Assembly: GCA_019565575.1 (NCBI GenBank)
Contig: CP067379.1
Span: 1,426,001 to 1,490,000, forward strand
Origin: Flavobacterium covae
GTDB taxonomy: Bacteria > Bacteroidota > Bacteroidia > Flavobacteriales > Flavobacteriaceae
DNA: 64,000 nucleotides
Reading direction: 5' to 3'
Shown: piece by piece, positions 2,197 through 15,528 of the stretch
Layout of the letters: each line of letters begins with the position of its first letter
How positions within the stretch are numbered: position 1 is the stretch's first letter
The notes under the pieces: generated by a model
Seen by the model: the letters and a program-made list of their open reading frames with translations, nothing else
Database searches by the model: none
What the model was told of the DNA's origin: nothing
Translations under genes and position numbers: made by a program

Positions 2197-3235
2197 ATGG
2201 AACAAGCATTAATTATAGAAAAAGGAATTATCATCGTAGCTGTTTTTGCCATCACTATGTTGGCAGCTATGTACACTACGTTAGCAGAACGTAAAATCGC
2301 AGCTTGGTTACAAGACCGTATCGGTCCTAACCGTGCGGGTAAAGGAGGTATTTTACAACCCCTAGCCGATGGTTTAAAACTATTTGCTAAAGAAGAGTTT
2401 ATGCCTGATACACCTAATAAATTTTTATTCATATTAGGTCCTGCAATCTCCATGAGTATGGCATTAATAACCAGTGCTGTATTACCTTGGGGGGATTCTA
2501 TCCAAATTTTTGGAAGAACGGTTATTCTTCAAGCAGCTGAATTAGATGTGTCCATTTTATACGTATTTGCTGTATTATCAATCAGTGTTTACGGAATTAT
2601 GATTGGTGGATGGGCATCAAACAACAAGTATTCCTTAATGTCTGCTTTACGTGCATCATCGCAAATGATTTCTTATGAAGTTGCTATGGGATTATCCATT
2701 ATTGCAGTAATTATGATGAATGGTAACTTAAGTTTGAGAGAAATTGCCAACCAACAACACGGTATGAACTGGAATGTGTTTTACCAACCATTAGGTTTCA
2801 TCATTTTCTTAGTATGTTCTTTTGCTGAAACAAATAGAACTCCTTTCGACTTAGCAGAATGTGAGGCTGAGCTTATTGGTGGTCACCACACAGAATATTC
2901 ATCTATGAAAATGGGATTCTATTTATTTGGTGAATATGCGGCTATGTTTGTTTCTTCAGCTATTATTTCTATCTTATATTTTGGAGGATACAATTATCCT
3001 TTCATGGATATGGTTGCTGGAAGCTTTAGGGCAAAATGCTGCGAACATCATAGGAATCATGGCTTTGTTTGCTAAAATATTATTCTTCATCTTCTTCTAT
3101 ATCTGGGTTCGTTGGACTATTCCTCGTTTCCGTTATGACCAGTTGATGAATTTAGGTTGGAAAATGTTAATTCCTTTAGCGATTGCCAATGTGGCAATAA
3201 CAGGAATTGTGATTGTGATAGCTGATAATATGTAA
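2197..3235 (+). CDS. nuoH: NADH-quinone oxidoreductase subunit H (one assembly frameshift)
   Basis: Membrane subunit at the quinone-binding junction of complex I. About eight hydrophobic segments; the family signature [21 protein letters not shown] is at residues 28-48 and the conserved [19 protein letters not shown] loop near 213-231. The frame breaks at 3017-3023, where CTGGAAG stands in place of CTGAAG; removing one G restores [17 protein letters not shown], matching the length of homologues. The rest reads through to [15 protein letters not shown] and the stop at 3235. The break is one of twelve at the same heptamer and is almost certainly a sequencing artefact. Operon member; downstream is a foreign ORF6N gene rather than nuoI directly. 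Confidence 0.94.
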
Positions 3236-3302
3236 TTTTTGAGGCTTCTATTTGGCTTCTTAAATTTTAAAAGAAATATTTAATAACGCCAAATATAATA
3301 GT

Positions 3303-3827
3303 ATGAGCCAAAATGAGATTACAATTCCAGATGAAATTATTTCTAACAAAATATATTTCATAAGAGGTCAAAAAGTTATGTTAGATAAAGATTTAGCAGA
3401 ACTTTATCAGGTTGAAACTAAAAATTTAAAACGCCAAGTAAAAAGAAATATTGAACGTTTTCCTGAAGATTTCATGTTCGAACTTAGTGAGGAAGAATTT
3501 GAAATCTTGAGGTGCCAATTTGGCACCTCAAGTTGGGGAGGTACTAGATATAGACCGATTGCTTTTACTGAAAACGGTGTTGCGATGTTGTCTAGTGTGC
3601 TTAATAGTCCAATAGCTATTAAGATGAATATTCAAATTATTAGAGTGTTCACTAAAATTCGTGAAGCCTTATCAGATAATTTGAACATTAAATTAGAAAT
3701 AGAAGAAATTAAAAAGAAACTTTCGAATCACAGTAAAAACATCGAGCTAGTATTCAACTATCTAGATGAGCTGATTGAAAAGAAAGATAATACAAAAGAA
3801 AGAACCCAAATAGGTTATAAAAAGTGA
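3303..3827 (+). CDS. ORF6N domain DNA-binding protein inserted in the nuo operon
   Basis: A 174-residue protein whose N-terminal 100 residues match the ORF6N domain (related to KilA-N/Bro families found in phage antirepressors): IYFIRGQKVMLDKDLAELY, then LKRQVKRNIERFPEDFMFEL, then FTENGVAMLSSVLNSPIAI. The C-terminus is a charged helix, likely coiled coil (about 120-160). ORF6N proteins are associated with phages and mobile DNA; their host role is unknown. It sits between nuoH (67 bp upstream) and nuoI (start 4 bp after its stop), same strand, so it is probably co-transcribed with complex I. Intact, with a 27-bp palindrome inside the coding region. Nothing in complex I biology explains it; an inserted gene is the likely reading. 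Confidence 0.85.
   Translation: MSQNEITIPDEIISNKIYFIRGQKVMLDKDLAELYQVETKNLKRQVKRNIERFPEDFMFELSEEEFEILRCQFGTSSWGGTRYRPIAFTENGVAMLSSVLNSPIAIKMNIQIIRVFTKIREALSDNLNIKLEIEEIKKKLSNHSKNIELVFNYLDELIEKKDNTKERTQIGYKK
3506..3532. repeat. 27-bp palindrome inside the ORF6N gene
   Basis: CTTGAGGTGCCAA, one T, then its exact reverse complement: a perfect 13-bp inverted repeat with a single central base. It lies inside the ORF6N coding sequence and encodes part of ILRCQFGTSS. A symmetric site this long could be an operator for the protein itself or an mRNA hairpin; this is inference. Confidence 0.7.
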
Positions 3828-3831
3828 TAAA

Positions 3832-4368
3832 ATGTCAATAGAAACCATTTCATTATCAGGAAGAAAAAAGGAGGTCTCTAATAAGAAGATGACTTTCTGG
3901 GAAAGCTTGTATCTGGTTGCGATTGTGAAAGGATTGTTTACAACGATTCGTCACTTGTTCAAAAGAAAGGTTACCATTAAGTATCCTGAACAAGTACGTC
4001 CGTTCAGTCCAGTTTATCGTGGACAACACATGTTGAAACGCGATGAACAAGGTCGTGAAAATTGTACGGCATGTGGTATGTGTGCTGTAGCTTGTCCAGC
4101 AGAAGCAATTACCATGACAGCAGCCGAACGTAAAAAAGGAGAAGAGCATTTGTATAGAGAAGAAAAATATGCTTCAACGTATGAAATTAATATGTTGCGT
4201 TGTATTTTCTGTGGTTTATGCGAGGAAGCTTGTCCTAAAGATGCGATTTATTTGACAGAATCAAAAGTGATTGTAAAATCAGCATCAAACCGTGAAGACT
4301 TTATTTACGGGAAAGATAAATTGGTAATGCCATTAGATATGGCTATTAAGAACTCAAAAACAAACTAA
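3832..4368 (+). CDS. nuoI: NADH-quinone oxidoreductase subunit I
   Basis: Ferredoxin-like subunit carrying clusters N6a and N6b, the last relays before quinone. Two 4Fe-4S motifs are plain: CTACGMCAVACP at about residue 76 and CIFCGLCEEACP at about 121. Length 178 residues, normal for the family; an amphipathic N-terminal stretch would anchor it to the membrane arm. The start ATG at 3832 is 4 bp after the ORF6N stop, so its translation may be coupled to the inserted gene. Uninterrupted; nuoJ begins 1 bp after the stop. Confidence 0.96.
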   Translation: MSIETISLSGRKKEVSNKKMTFWESLYLVAIVKGLFTTIRHLFKRKVTIKYPEQVRPFSPVYRGQHMLKRDEQGRENCTACGMCAVACPAEAITMTAAERKKGEEHLYREEKYASTYEINMLRCIFCGLCEEACPKDAIYLTESKVIVKSASNREDFIYGKDKLVMPLDMAIKNSKTN

Positions 4369-4369
4369 A

Positions 4370-4879
4370 ATGTCGATAATTACACTTTTCTATATTTTAG
4401 CGGCGATTACTCTTGCTACGGGTTTCATGACTGTAGTAAGCAAGAATCCTATCCATAGTGCCATTTATTTGGTATTGTGTTTTTTTAGCATTGGTGGGCA
4501 CTACTTGTTGTTCAATGCGCAATTCTTAGCCTTAGTTCACATCATTGTATATGCAGGTGCTATCATGGTTTTGATATTGTTTACCATCATGTTGATGAAT
4601 TTGAACAAAGAAAATGAACCCAATAAGGATATGTTATCCAAAATATCCGCTACCCTTGCTTTTGGTTTATTATGCTTTGTGTTGTTAGCTACTTTTGTAA
4701 AGGCTATGCCTAAAATTCAGGAGTATAAAAACACAGGAGCGGATTTCCAATCTATCAAAGTTTTGGGTAAAGTATTGTTAAATGAATATATGGTACCTTT
4801 TGAATTTGCTTCTGTATTGTTATTAGTTGCTATGATTGGTGCAGTATTATTGTCTAAAAAAGATAAATCAATTCAATAA
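4370..4879 (+). CDS. nuoJ: NADH-quinone oxidoreductase subunit J
   Basis: Small membrane subunit of the proton-pumping arm, 169 residues with five hydrophobic segments. The stretch [20 protein letters not shown] and the following [20 protein letters not shown] (TM3, which carries the functional pi-bulge region in homologues) are characteristic. Start ATG is one base after the nuoI stop and nuoK follows immediately, consistent with one transcript. Uninterrupted. Confidence 0.94.
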
Positions 4880-5207: not shown

Positions 5208-7090
5208 ATGGAAAAAAATTTAGCTTTAGTATTATTGTTAGCACCTTTATTTGGATTTTTAGCCAATATATTTTGGGGTAAAAAAGCAGGTAAAGGATTT
5301 GTAGGACTGTTAGGGACATTATCTATTTTAATATCCTTCTTTGCTACCACGTATTTTTTCACGTTAATCCAATCGACTGGAAAAGGAGTGCAAATTGACT
5401 TATTCCAATGGATTTCTTTGGAAAAATTCAACATTAACTTTTCGTTCTTGTTAGACCAATTATCTGTTTTATGGTTACTATTCGTTACAGGTATTGGTAC
5501 TTTGATTCATATGTATTCCGCTAGCTATATGCATGACGATGAGAATATGCATAAGTTTTTTGCTTACTTAAATCTATTCGTATTCTTTATGATTACGTTA
5601 GTAATGGGTAGCAACTTATTGATTCTTTTCATTGGCTGGGAAGGTGTAGGATTATGTTCTTATTTACTTATCGGATTTTGGTATAAAAACCAAGAGTATA
5701 ATGATGCTGCTAAAAAGGCATTCATCATGAACCGTGTTGGAGATTTAGGTTTATTAATTGGTATCTTCATCTTAGCTTATGTTTTTGGAAGTTTAGAATA
5801 TTCAGAAATCGCTAATGGTATTTTTGAAAAAGGATTGGCTGTTAAAAATGCCGGATTACTATCGGTTGCCGCTTTATGTTTGTTCATTGGAGCAACAGGT
5901 AAATCAGCGCAGGTGCCTTTATATACATGGTTACCTGATGCGATGGCGGGACCAACTCCTGTTTCTGCCTTAATCCACGCTGCAACCATGGTTACCGCAG
6001 GTATTTTTATGGTAACGCGTTTAAACTTTGTGTTTGATTTAGCACCATCGGTTCAACAAATCATTGCAATTATAGGTGCTGCAACAGCAGTTTTAGCAGC
6101 AGCTATTGGTTTAGTACAAAACGATATCAAAAAAGTATTGGCTTATTCTACCGTTTCTCAATTGGGATTAATGTTTTTAGCTTTAGGTTTAGGAGCTTAT
6201 GAAGTAGCCGTTTTCCATGTAATTACACATGCTTTCTTTAAGGCTTGTTTGTTCTTAGGTTCTGGTTCAGTTATTCATGCTTTACATGGTGAGCAAGATA
6301 TGCGCAACATGGGTGGTCTGAAAAAAGTGATGCCTATTACGTATATGACCATGATGATTTCTACCTTAGCCATTTCAGGTATTTTCCCTTTTGCTGGTTT
6401 CTGGTCAAAAGACGAAATCTTGATGACCGCTTTTCATGGTAGTAAAGCTTTATGGGTAGTAGGTTCTGTTGCTTCAATAATGACCGCTTTCTATATGTTC
6501 CGATTGATGTATTTGACTTTCTTGGGTGAATTTAGAGGAACAGAAGCACAAAAGAAACATTTACATGAAAGTCCAAAGTTAATCACTATTCCTTTGATGA
6601 TTTTAGCAGCTTTAGCTGTAGTGGGTGGTGCTATTAACTTACCTGGTAGCACTTGGTTATCGCATTATTTAGCTCCATTATTCCACAAAGCACATGAGGC
6701 GCATCATTTAGATGGTACTGCTTATATGTTAATGGCAATTGCTACAGTAGGAGCTTTAGTTGGAATTTATTTAGCGTATTCAAAATATATTGCCAAAAAG
6801 AAGTGCCTGTTCAAGACGAGCAGTTACAAGGTTTTGCTAAAGTTGCTTACCATAAGTTCTATGTAGATGAAATCTATGAAGCGGTTATTGTTAAACCTAT
6901 CTATCAATTATCTCATTTCTTTAGAAAATATACAGAAGTATTTATTTCAGAAATTATATTCAGTTTTGCTAAAATAGCAGAATTATTAGCCAATCAAGGA
7001 AAATTAATTCAAAATGGAAATATAGGAGTGTATTTACTAGCCTTTGTAATAGGACTATCTTCCATTTTGATTTATATATTTTTAGTTTAA
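5208..7090 (+). CDS. nuoL: NADH-quinone oxidoreductase subunit L (one assembly frameshift)
   Basis: Largest antiporter-like proton-pumping subunit. Signatures include FIGWEGVGLCSYLLIGFWY (about residue 142), the lysine/aspartate-rich AAKKAFIMNRVGDLG, and TWLPDAMAGPTPVSALIHAATM (about 240). The frame breaks in an A5 run at 6795-6799; adding one A gives IAKKEVPVQDEQLQGFAKVAYHKFYVDEIYE and continues to the normal C-terminal amphipathic and membrane helices ending at 7090. The break is a homopolymer undercount, not a truncation. Restored length is about 627 residues, normal for the family. nuoM begins 12 bp later. Confidence 0.94.
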
Positions 7091-8605: not shown

Positions 8606-9983
8606 ATGAATACATTAATTGCTATATCAGGATTAGGAATAATTGTTATGTTAGCTGAAATGCTAAATGCAAGAAAAGCTATTGTGCCTTTAACCATTGT
8701 AGGGCTATTGGTTATTTTAGGTTTTAACATTTCTGAGTACAACCTATTAGGTACCTATTTAAACAACATGATGTTTGTAGACCGTTTTTCTGTCGCTTTT
8801 TCTAGTTTGTTTATCATAATTACGATCTTTCTTATTGCTATGGGAGGTGAGTTTTATAAAGAAAAAATGACTAGAATTTCTGACTTTGTATCCATAAAAG
8901 TTTTTCTTTTGGCAGGTGGTGTAACCATGGTGTCTTTTGGTAATTTAGCAATGTTTTTTCTAGGAATTGAGATTCTTTCTATTTCATTGTACGTTTTAGC
9001 AGCAAGTAACCGTACAAATTTACGTAGCAATGAAGCAGGAATGAAATACTTTTTAATGGGAGCCTTTGCTTCTGGAATTATACTTTTGGAATTGCCTTGA
9101 TCTATGGTGCTACAGGAAGTTTTGATTTGCAAACAATTTATCAGATTATACATACTACTACTTACCCTCAATGGTATAATATTGGTTTGATATTTGTTTT
9201 GATAGGAATGCTTTTTAAAGTAGCAGCAGCTCCTTTTCATTTTTGGTCGCCTGATGTTTATGAAGGCTCTCCTGCACTTACGACAGCCACCATGAGTACT
9301 TTGGGAAAAGTGGTTTCTATGGCAGCTCTATTTAAATTAATTACTTTATTAGTCCCTTTTCAAACCTATCATTTTCAGATGTTAGTAGTGGTTGTTTCAA
9401 TAGCCTCTATGATGATTGGAAATATTATGGCATTACGTCAAAACAATGTAAAACGTATGTTGGCTTTTTCAGGTATATCTCATGCAGGTTTTATGTTAAT
9501 GACTTTAATTGTGCCTAATTTTGCTGCCAATATACTATTTTATTATGCCACAGCTTATACTATTTCAGGATTAGCTATTTTTGCTATAATTTTATATGTA
9601 ACAAAAAGAAAAGAAAATGAAACTATTGATCTTTTTAATGGTTTAGGAAAGACACACCCTGTTGCAGCTTTAATTGTAACAACTTCATTACTCTCTATGG
9701 CGGGTATTCCTATTTTTTCAGGTTTTTTTGCTAAATTCTTTCTATTTAATCAGGTTGTAAATTCAGGTTGGATTATTTTGGTTATTATAGCTGTTATTGC
9801 ATCTATTATTAGTGTTGGGTATTATTTTAAATTAATTTTGGCAATGTATACCAAATCATCAAATAATACGAATGATCAAAAAAATGAGATACCTTTTGTT
9901 TATCTTTTTTAGGAATTATTGGTTTAATTGCAAATTTAATAATCGGTTTCTTTCCAAATATATTACTAAATTTAATTAGGTAA
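8606..9983 (+). CDS. nuoN: NADH-quinone oxidoreductase subunit N (two assembly frameshifts)
   Basis: Third antiporter-like subunit and last gene of the nuo operon. Conserved segments include FFLGIEILSISLYVLAASNR, KVAAAPFHFWSPDVYEGSP and NVKRMLAFSGISHAGFML. Two homopolymer undercounts split the frame: T4 at 9084-9087 (one more T gives ILLFGIALIYGATGSFDL) and T6 at 9905-9910 (one more T carries the frame to a stop at 9981-9983, about 24 residues later). Restored length is about 459 residues, normal. A strong terminator follows at 10001. Confidence 0.92.
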
Positions 9984-12498: not shown

Positions 12499-15400
12499 AT
12501 GTCATCAAACAAAAAATACTGGAAAAGTGTTGAGGAGCTAAACGAAAATAGCTCTATTGTTGAGACGCTTAGAAATAACGAGTTTGTTGAAGAAATTCCA
12601 ACAGATGAGTTTTTAGGTGATGCTGCTACACTTGCATCGTCTAATACAACACGTCGTGATTTTCTTAAGTATGTAGGATTCAGTACAGCTGCTGCAACTT
12701 TAGCGGCTTGTGAAGGTCCAGTGCATAAGTCTATCCCTTATGTAGTTCAACCTGAGGAAATCATTCCTGGAATTGCAGATTATTATGCTACTTCATTCTC
12801 GGATGGTTTTGATTTTGCTAATATCTTGGTAAAGACCCGTGAAGGGCGCCCTATTAAGATTGAAAATAACAAAATAGAAGGTGCAAACTTCCATGCTAAT
12901 GCTCGTGTTCATGCGTCTGTGTTATCGTTGTACGATAGCTTACGTCTAAAAACTTCGAAAATAGCTGGAAAAGAATCTTCTTGGACTGGAAGCAAATGCT
13001 ATGATTAAAGCTAGTATTGCTGGAAGCAAAAACGAAAGGAGGTAAAGTGGTTCTATTAACTAATACTTCTGCTTCACCATCTACAGATCGTTTAATCGGT
13101 CAGTTCCTAACAGCTAACCCTAATGCAAAGCATATAGTATATGATGCAGTATCTTCATCAGAAGCATTAGATGCTTTTCAAATGGTTTATGGTGAAAGAG
13201 CTTTAGCAGATTATGATTTCTCTAAAGCAAATGTAATTGTGTCAATTGGTGCTGATTTCTTAGGAGATTGGCAAGGTGGTAGTTTTGATGCAGCTTATGC
13301 CCAAGGACGTATTCCTCAAAATGGTAAAATGTCTAAACATTACCAATTTGAAGCAAATATGACATTATCTGGTGCTGCTGCTGATAAGCGCGTTCCTATG
13401 ACAGTTGCTGCCCAAAAACAAGCATTAGTTCAAATTTATAACATAATCACAGGTGCCTCTATAGGAACTTCAAATAATTCTGAAGTTGCAAAAGCAGCTC
13501 AACAATTAAAAGCAGCTGGAAGTAAAGGGGTATTGGTTTGTGGCATCGATGATAAAAATGCACAATTGTTAGTATTAGCAATTAACCGTGCGTTGTCAAG
13601 TGAAGCTTTCAATACAGGAAATACACGCCAAATCCGTAAAGGAAATAACGCAGATGTTAAACAATTAATTGCAGATATGAATTCAGGTGCTGTTCATACC
13701 TTAATTATGAATGGTGTTAATCCTGTTTATACTTTACACAATACTAAAGAGTTTACAGAGGCATTGAAAAAAGTAAAATTAGTAGTTACTTTTACAATGA
13801 AAGAAGATGAAACAGCTTTAAGTTCTACTATTGCTGTACCTACTCCTCATTATTTAGAATCTTGGGGTGATGTAAGCATCGTAAAAGGTAGCTATGCTAT
13901 CACACAGCCTACTATCCGTCCATTATTTGATACAGTTCAATTCCAAGATGCTTTATTGTCTTGGACTGGAAATGGTCAGTCATACTATGATTATATCCGT
14001 GGTGCTTATACTGGTGCTAAAACTTGGAACCAATTAGTACATGATGGTGTTGAATTTACAGTTTTACCATCTACTTCTGGTGCAAATACTGATTTCAATG
14101 CAGCAGCAGCAGTTTTAGCAAATGCTAAATCAGCAGGCATGGAATTAGTGTTATACACTAAAACAGGTATGGGTGATGGGCAACAAGCAAACAACCCTTG
14201 GTTACAAGAATTCCCAGACCCAATTACACGCGCTTCTTGGGATAACTACATTACTATGTCTAAAGCTGATGCTGAAGGTTTAGGGATTGAAAACTGGAAT
14301 GTTGCAAATGGTGGTTTGAATGGTCACACCGCTAACATCACTGTCAATAAAGTGAAGTTAGAAAATGTACCTGTTATGATTCAACCAGGTCAAGCTAAAG
14401 GAACTATCGGTTTAGCTTTAGGTTATGGTCGTAAAGCTTCTTTAAAAGAAGAAATGCAAGTGGGTGTTAACGCTTATCCTGTTTATACAAATTTTAATAC
14501 CGTACAAAATATTTCGGTTGAAAAAGGAAATGGCGAACATGAATTTGCTTGTGTACAGCTGCAAAAAACCTTAATGGGTCGTAACGATATCATTAAAGAA
14601 ACTACTTTAGAAATTTTTAATACAAAAGACGCTGCTGAATGGAATGTGATGCCAATGGTATCTCTAGATCATAAAGAAGTTCCTTCAACTTCAGTAGATT
14701 TGTGGGAATCTTTCGATAGAACTATCGGTCACCACTTCAATTTATCAATCGACTTGAATGCTTGTACAGGTTGTGGAGCATGTGTTATTGCGTGTCACGC
14801 TGAAAACAACGTTCCAGTGGTAGGTAAGTCAGAAGTAAGAAGAAGCCGTGATATGCACTGGTTACGTATCGACAGATACTATTCTTCTGAAACTACTTTC
14901 GAAGGTGATAACGAGAAAAAACATTCAGCTTCTGGTTTATTAGATTCAAGAAACAAATACATCGAGTTAGAATCTGCTTCTGAGAATCCTCAAGTAGTAT
15001 TCCAACCCGTAATGTGTCAGCACTGTAACCACGCTCCGTGTGAAACAGTATGTCCAGTTGCAGCAACTTCACATGGTCGTCAAGGTCAAAACCACATGGC
15101 GTACAACCGTTGTGTAGGTACTCGTTACTGTGCAAACAACTGTCCTTACAAAGTGCGTCGTTTCAACTGGTTCTTATACAATAAGAATGAAGAGTTTAAC
15201 TACCACATGAATGATGATTTAGGTCGTATGGCATTAAATCCAGACGTAAACTTACGTTCTCGTGGGGTTATGGAAAAATGTTCAATGTGTATCCAAATGA
15301 CACAAGCTACTATCTTAAAAGCGAAAAATGAAGGTCGTGTAATTCAAGATGGTGAATTCCAAACGGCATGTTCTAATGCATGTACTTCCAGGAGCTATGG

Positions 15401-15528
15401 TATTTGGTGATGTGAATGACAAGGAATCTCAAGTAGCTAAATTAGCAGCAGGAGAGCGTTCTTACCATTTATTAGAGCACATCGGAACACAGCCAAATGT
15501 GGTTTACCAAGTTAAAGTTAGAAATTAA
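12499..15528 (+). CDS. actB: alternative complex III iron-sulfur subunit ActB (three assembly frameshifts)
   Basis: Large subunit with a molybdopterin-oxidoreductase-like N-terminal part (without cofactor in this family) and a C-terminal iron-sulfur part that relays electrons to ActA. N-terminal TRRDFLKYVGFSTAAATLAAC is a Tat-type signal followed by a lipobox-like cysteine. The cluster motifs CTGCGACVIACHAENNVP, CQHCNHAPCETVCP, CVGTRYCANNCPYK and CSMC lie from about residue 750 on. Three frame breaks, all in CTGGAAG/CTTCCAG: 12986-12992, 13020-13026 and 15385-15391. Removing one base each gives SSWTEANAMIKASIAEAKTK and ACTSGAMVFGDVND, the latter fitting the family spacing. The true stop is 15526-15528. 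Confidence 0.94.

Follow-up and report, generated by a model that had tools for sequence, protein, structure and literature searches.

The ORF6N gene and its neighbors

We analyzed a 64,000-nucleotide stretch of the Flavobacterium covae genome (the window), in which an ORF6N gene lies within the complex I operon. The upstream neighbor is nuoH (NADHdh, PF00146), and the downstream ORF encodes a two-[4Fe-4S] protein, which we read as nuoI. Both the ORF list and Pfam agree with an earlier note on this DNA that the ORF6N gene is intact, runs in the operon direction, and is separated from nuoI by 4 bp. The features discussed here are:

2197..3235, + strand: nuoH, frameshifted in the present assembly (ORF list, Pfam)
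3303..3827, + strand: ORF6N gene, 174 aa, with an N-terminal HTH/winged-type domain and a long C-terminal helix (PF10543, 131 bits; AlphaFold2 model)
3417..3446, + strand: codons of the predicted recognition helix, residues 39-48 (T-K-N-L-K-R-Q-V-K-R) (AlphaFold2 model, core covariation)
3432-3434, + strand: R44 codon of the predicted recognition helix
3504..3534, strandless: in-gene palindrome, 31 bp, proposed binding site of the ORF6N protein (inverted-repeat scan, cross-gene pairing)
3522..3557, + strand: codons of the low-confidence hypervariable loop 74-85, wing-like, between predicted strands (AlphaFold2, alignment)
3832..4368, + strand: nuoI, beginning 4 bp past the ORF6N stop (ORF list, Pfam)

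The ORF6N frame is free of internal stops, and its product scores 131.2 bits with the PF10543 ORF6N profile (cut-off 27.8). Together with the predicted HTH, this bears out the earlier assignment to a DNA-binding family. The protein reached 22.5 bits with the profile of the phage Rha regulator (PF09669), below the cut-off of 29.9 for membership. In Pfam searches with E up to 0.001, ORF6N and this sub-threshold Rha match were the only hits and KilAC was absent; Pfam also revealed no nuclease or recombinase domain. An AlphaFold2 model of the monomer (mean pLDDT 83) contains helices 28-35 and 39-48, which form the HTH, strand 58-60, helix 63-73, the low-confidence loop 74-85, and strand 86-89. A PDB sequence search gave a single match (E 0.33), and Foldseek returned weak matches throughout, with a Ski-like fragment ranking first (E 0.11).

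nuoH is split between two overlapping frames (2197-3075 and 2927-3235) by a frameshift. Further window genes, by eye nuoL-like, nuoN-like, and a molybdopterin-type subunit, are split in the same way (5208-7090, 8606-9912, 12499-15410). Since several window genes are frameshifted and the listed completeness of the genome is 88%, indel errors in the assembly are likely. The window gene is the sole ORF6N match in this 3.4-Mb genome, which answers the earlier suggestion to look for the same gene at other loci. A repeat scan of positions 2800-4400 confirmed that element ends are absent beside the gene, the longest direct pair being 32 nt at 72%. With nuo genes as neighbors and no element ends in this interval, the gene does not have the surroundings of mobile-element cargo. 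The same interval contains one terminator-like and eight promoter-like sites, all at chance level. Comparison with relatives (seven of eight chosen relatives recovered by the script, palindrome codons excluded) indicated purifying selection, as pN was 0.13-0.18 and pS 0.72-0.81. The leader of the gene (3284-3302, ACGCCAAA ahead of the ATG) resembles those of the nuo-site genes L122, L145, L153, and L204.

We surveyed the nuoH-nuoI junction in 150 Flavobacterium genomes. nuoI was matched in 135, from which 136 loci were read; after setting aside one locus in which nuoH was out of reach, 135 junctions in 134 genomes remained. A full ORF6N gene occupies the junction in 15 of the 134, the window included. 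The earlier note had set a one-off insertion against an ordinary operon member, and this patchy distribution fits neither. The other junction proteins are 49-78% identical to the window protein in amino acids. One junction (L131) retains a C-terminal ORF6N remnant and another (L214) a doubtful one (E 0.005), while a single genome bin has the gene on one contig and lacks it on another. Truncated ORF6N copies occur at other places in the genus. The three closest relatives by NuoI have no ORF6N gene at the junction and a nuoH-nuoI gap of 3-4 bp; by NuoH and NuoI combined, the nearest row to the window is a carrier, Flavobacterium sp. H122. Four extra carriers, in which we verified the order nuoH-ORF6N-nuoI, came from the contigs of relatives. 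On the NuoH+NuoI tree (137 rows), the best topology cannot explain ORF6N presence with fewer than 13 changes, and well-supported branches force at least 8; label shuffling needs 18 on average. On the ORF6N tree (139 rows, loop columns omitted), the nuo-site genes require 4 changes. From the change counts on both trees, mostly related ORF6N genes appear to have held the nuo site, with repeated loss or exchange. Flavo-1 RNA (RF01705) lies in the nuoH-nuoI spacer of 13 of 16 hand-chosen junction loci (for example, L131 2058-2139). None was found in the window, and a role for this RNA was therefore dropped.

The label "phage-type" in the earlier note did not survive a wider search. Bacterial genome contigs were one source of relatives (452 confirmed, 80 of them kept), and 21 of 72,556 plasmid records carry relatives. 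With tblastn, 5 of 50,697 phage records matched and none covered 80% of the window protein; among 2.9 million viral contigs, a pattern scan sensitive only to close relatives returned three loci. Thus, close ORF6N relatives are rare on phages. A comparison of E. coli strains by DNA query gave zero matches. On two small Segatella copri plasmids (L285 and L339; 2,955 and 4,140 bp), the listed genes are one replication gene and one ORF6N gene with an internal palindrome, and nothing else.

A palindrome within ORF6N coding sequences

The window gene contains a palindrome that is absent from the observations of the earlier note. It is odd-centered at 3519, with perfect arms at 3506-3518 and 3520-3532, and the full 31 bp run from codon 68 to the first base of codon 78. 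In 124 ORF6N genes (ORFs of at least 130 codons), the best in-gene palindrome scored 11.5 on average, compared to 6.25 after synonymous codon shuffling, and in 111 of these its center fell at reference codons 66-78. Arm pairing extends to offset 15 and ends at offset 16. At offsets 2-13, 1254 of 1488 pairs are complementary; when arms were swapped between genes, the mean was 879 and the maximum 926. Partners vary jointly, as offset 4 is C-G 42 times, G-C 33 times, and A-T 30 times. The arms and the peptides they encode differ between genes, yet the aligned place stays palindromic, and the perfect palindrome is retained in relatives although synonymous divergence is saturated.

A palindrome of score 9 is present at the site in 136 of 165 ORF6N genes and missing from 29. 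Because loci L247-L276, which are included in our main sets, had been fetched by palindrome pattern, we repeated the count without them (108 of 136). Code, tree, loop, and selection analyses used 139 of the 165 genes (150-215 aa, stop-free), of which 137 have a palindrome of score at least 6; in 7 of the 139, the palindrome is read in a different codon phase. Among plasmid records, 7 of 10 ORF6N genes in eight records have the palindrome, namely those of Treponema, Sulfuricurvum, Butyrivibrio, Segatella, Bacteroides, and two of three Parabacteroides genes. No palindrome of score 9 was found in the plasmid-borne ORF6N genes of Alistipes and Haliovirga or in the third Parabacteroides gene.

The core pattern occurs in 55 of the 150 Flavobacterium genomes (a control pattern in 1 of 150) and in 5 of 61 genomes from a wider sample of the phylum. 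Among the at least 75 copies listed, 43 are inside an ORF6N match, 31 are within 1 kb of one, and 1 is elsewhere. The window genome has a single site, in the ORF6N gene itself, at up to 3 mismatches in 25 or 2 in 17. Since the window genome holds one copy and the copies listed for relatives are confined to ORF6N neighborhoods, we rejected a dispersed REP-like repeat.

Long palindromes were also seen inside the domain match of KilA-N genes (PF04383) in 5 of 12 scanned loci, out of 14 matches (L289 917-948; L290 1686-1729; L291 1653-1690; L292 1695-1726; L295 1663-1698). A further locus (L280) has one palindrome within and another upstream of its KilA-N gene.

Covariation of the palindrome core with the predicted recognition helix

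Information scores were computed for 122 genes whose core was clean and belonged to one of the four commonest classes. Residues 44 and 41 shared 1.59 and 1.46 bits above shuffled with core pairs 4-5, while elsewhere, beyond helix and palindrome, the top columns reached 0.29 bits. Residue 44 and the core pair as E44/CG, Q44/CA, R44/GC, and K44/TC, and the Q-A, R-G, and E-C combinations are familiar side-chain preferences. Of 136 genes, 131 follow this rule on one arm or both (shuffled mean 41, maximum 60), and 107 of 112 do so when pattern-fetched loci are removed; one gene besides the 136, with L44, falls outside the code. The window gene, with R44 and a GC core, obeys it, and so do genes from distantly related bacteria. 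Residue 48 is R in 135 of 135 genes with C at offset 3, and N or S in both genes with A. The association is looser between residue 40 and offset 7, and between residues 60, 43, and 40 and offset 8. The palindrome persists in its outer arms (offsets 9-15), yet beyond the loop no residue shows strong covariation with this part.

We applied the rules to 38 held-out genes from the same phylum and from plasmids, which are new sequences that retain some kinship with the first set. Two of the 38 had no palindrome of score 6. The remaining genes all obeyed the residue-44 rule on at least one arm (36/36; shuffled mean 11.4, maximum 22), 31 did so on both, and all 36 obeyed the residue-48 rule. Judged by this covariation, a site matching the gene's own helix lies within the gene in both sets.

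Relatedness fails to explain the code, since residue 44 is different in 18 of the 19 close pairs whose cores differ and in 1 of the 27 whose cores agree. A tree built without helix and loop columns places 39 changes in the core and likewise 39 in residue 44. Where branches were well supported, tree-aware independent pairs ran in the same direction or tied, with none opposite; the three sets comprised 5 pairs (p = 0.0625), 4 pairs (p = 0.125), and 4 pairs with one tie (p = 0.25), so that none falls below 0.05 alone. Control columns had no trend, among those listed of 22.

Residue 74, which the palindrome encodes, is also informative about the core (1.49 bits). This would be expected if residue 74 packed on residues 41 and 44 and the covariation were a matter of the protein only, with DNA symmetry arising from codon choice. 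However, synonymous codon shuffling abolishes the palindrome, and the code survives both a change of reading frame, as 7 of 7 genes with other-phase palindromes obey it, and a change of codon. Glycine-74 is encoded by GGA with K44 alone (6/6) and by GGC, GGT, or GGG with R44 (37/38), and the code also holds across synonymous serine codons. These comparisons largely refute the protein-only account, to which we give next to no credence. We considered too that the palindrome acts as a hairpin in mRNA, a structure open to an odd-centered inverted repeat whose middle varies. G-U should be tolerated along the whole of an RNA stem; over offsets 2-15, though, relative to arm-swapped expectation, G-T (0.35) was lower than A-C (0.52), with Watson-Crick pairs at 1.42. 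At offsets 4-8 alone, G-T mismatches were kept better (0.52) than A-C (0.34). Mismatch patterns as a whole thus favor a DNA site, while the core by itself leans slightly the other way. RNA pairing, moreover, would not demand that core pairs track an HTH residue, and it is this helix code that led us to choose DNA over RNA, an mRNA hairpin being extremely improbable. Together, the gene comparisons show that the palindrome is maintained at the level of DNA and that its core follows the predicted recognition helix.

Proposed self-recognition, alternatives, and known systems

Some loci contain additional, free palindromes, which we defined as lying within 500 bp, scoring at least 9, and having a CAA-TTG-like middle. 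Upstream, 15 of 28 obey the residue-44 rule (shuffled 10.0, p = 0.016), and 20 of the 28 are located 26-57 bp ahead of the start. Downstream, 9 of 21 obey it (shuffled 10.3, p = 0.82). Copies were also compared with their own gene's palindrome, after removing any free copy identical to an internal palindrome. Upstream copies within 160 bp matched at 10.5 of 15 positions (shuffled 9.2; n = 22, p = 0.0002), and downstream copies at 10.62 (shuffled 10.63; n = 25, p = 0.50). Treating all free palindromes as cognate operators is thus justified only in part: upstream copies resemble their own gene's palindrome beyond the shuffled level, and downstream copies do not. This incomplete following of the code is the main loose end.

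A model that we consider probable is that the ORF6N protein recognizes the palindrome in its own coding sequence and regulates itself. The covariation gives strong support to the protein recognizing its own gene. Physical binding to the palindrome is what this covariation suggests, and autoregulation, by a protein bound roughly 210 nt past the gene start, is a less certain proposal than binding. Two ORF6N subunits would read the two half-sites of the 31-bp palindrome, with residue 48 reading offset 3, residues 44 and 41 reading offsets 4-5, and residues 40 and 43 reading offsets 7-8. The bound protein might hold back RNA polymerase at the palindrome and so limit its own expression; in the window genome, this limitation could extend to nuoI and later genes on the same transcript. 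In some relatives, the extra palindromes ahead of the start may add promoter control or allow looping.

Two further explanations dispense with self-regulation. The patchy presence at the junction and the truncated copies elsewhere in the genus are what would be left by a phage relic that landed between nuoH and nuoI by chance and has no role. The intact frame, purifying selection, a perfect palindrome kept at saturated synonymous divergence, and the rarity of relatives on phages all speak against this origin, which we regard as very unlikely. More weight belongs to the possibility that the palindrome is mainly a site of recombination or cassette exchange, and that recognition, instead of controlling expression, serves swapping within a module that is selfish or diversifying. 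The segment swapped between genes, or between a gene and nearby free palindromes, would be the loop plus palindrome. Indeed, genes at least 90% identical elsewhere may differ by a whole loop type. We counted 127 pairs, some sharing members, that are more than 75% identical outside the loop and less than 60% within it, and two nuoH-nuoI genes (L134 and L133) are 95% identical outside and 59% within. Mixed-type palindrome arrays follow the gene in several loci with common neighbors, and in L255 and L266 homology breaks at the right end of the palindrome, with more palindromes within approximately 50 bp. On the other hand, the protein has no nuclease or recombinase domain by Pfam, no element ends flank the gene, and helix residues outside the swapped loop change along with it. 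On balance, we find exchange as the main function unlikely, if well short of negligible, and prefer self-recognition with autoregulation. As observations from the array loci, L274 has five 31-bp palindromes of several types in tandem past the ORF6N stop, and some array loci have downstream a gene that by eye is wecB-like.

If self-recognition is correct, the window protein would be a DNA-binding protein with its own gene as sole address, inside a respiratory operon, and this would explain how an ORF6N gene can settle in an operon such as nuo while bringing its own control. The recognition sequence of an uncharacterized family could be read directly from its genes, the residue-to-base-pair rule would make the specificity of many uncharacterized proteins predictable and cheaply testable, and natural switches of helix and site would serve the study of how DNA specificity evolves. 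We lean, with less assurance, toward a self-addressed family, in which ORF6N and perhaps KilA-N genes of several phyla carry the target beside its reader and switch or travel as a module.

The window protein resembles ORF6N/KilA-N (Bro/APSES) domain proteins in its PF10543 match and in its predicted HTH with a wing-like loop. Passages of a 2016 eLife paper (PMC4862756) describe KilA-N recognition sequences as little known outside the fungal branch, and, as far as those passages go, little is known of the targets of ORF6N and most KilA-N proteins. The same passages report that a fungal relative, PCG2, reads DNA through its wing; in the ORF6N genes studied here, by contrast, the helix bears the specificity signal and the site is within the gene itself. 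Phage FNU1 provides an example of an ORF6N-KilAC antirepressor (in the portion of PMC6591296 consulted), with which the window protein shares the ORF6N domain but not a KilAC match. In the literature that we searched, an ORF6N binding site or an in-gene self-site was unreported; because that literature held no preprints and few subscription papers, novelty is provisional.

Rickettsia palindromic elements and REP sequences are palindromes that lie within coding genes and are dispersed, whereas 74 of the 75 ORF6N-type copies listed are inside an ORF6N match or no more than 1 kb away from one. lac O2, the gal internal operator, and purR provide palindromic operators inside coding sequence, and a palindromic operator in a gene is what the proposed ORF6N site has in common with them. 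It differs from these in lying inside the gene of its presumed binder, at a fixed place, in several phyla, and in two reading frames, and in changing jointly with the recognition helix.
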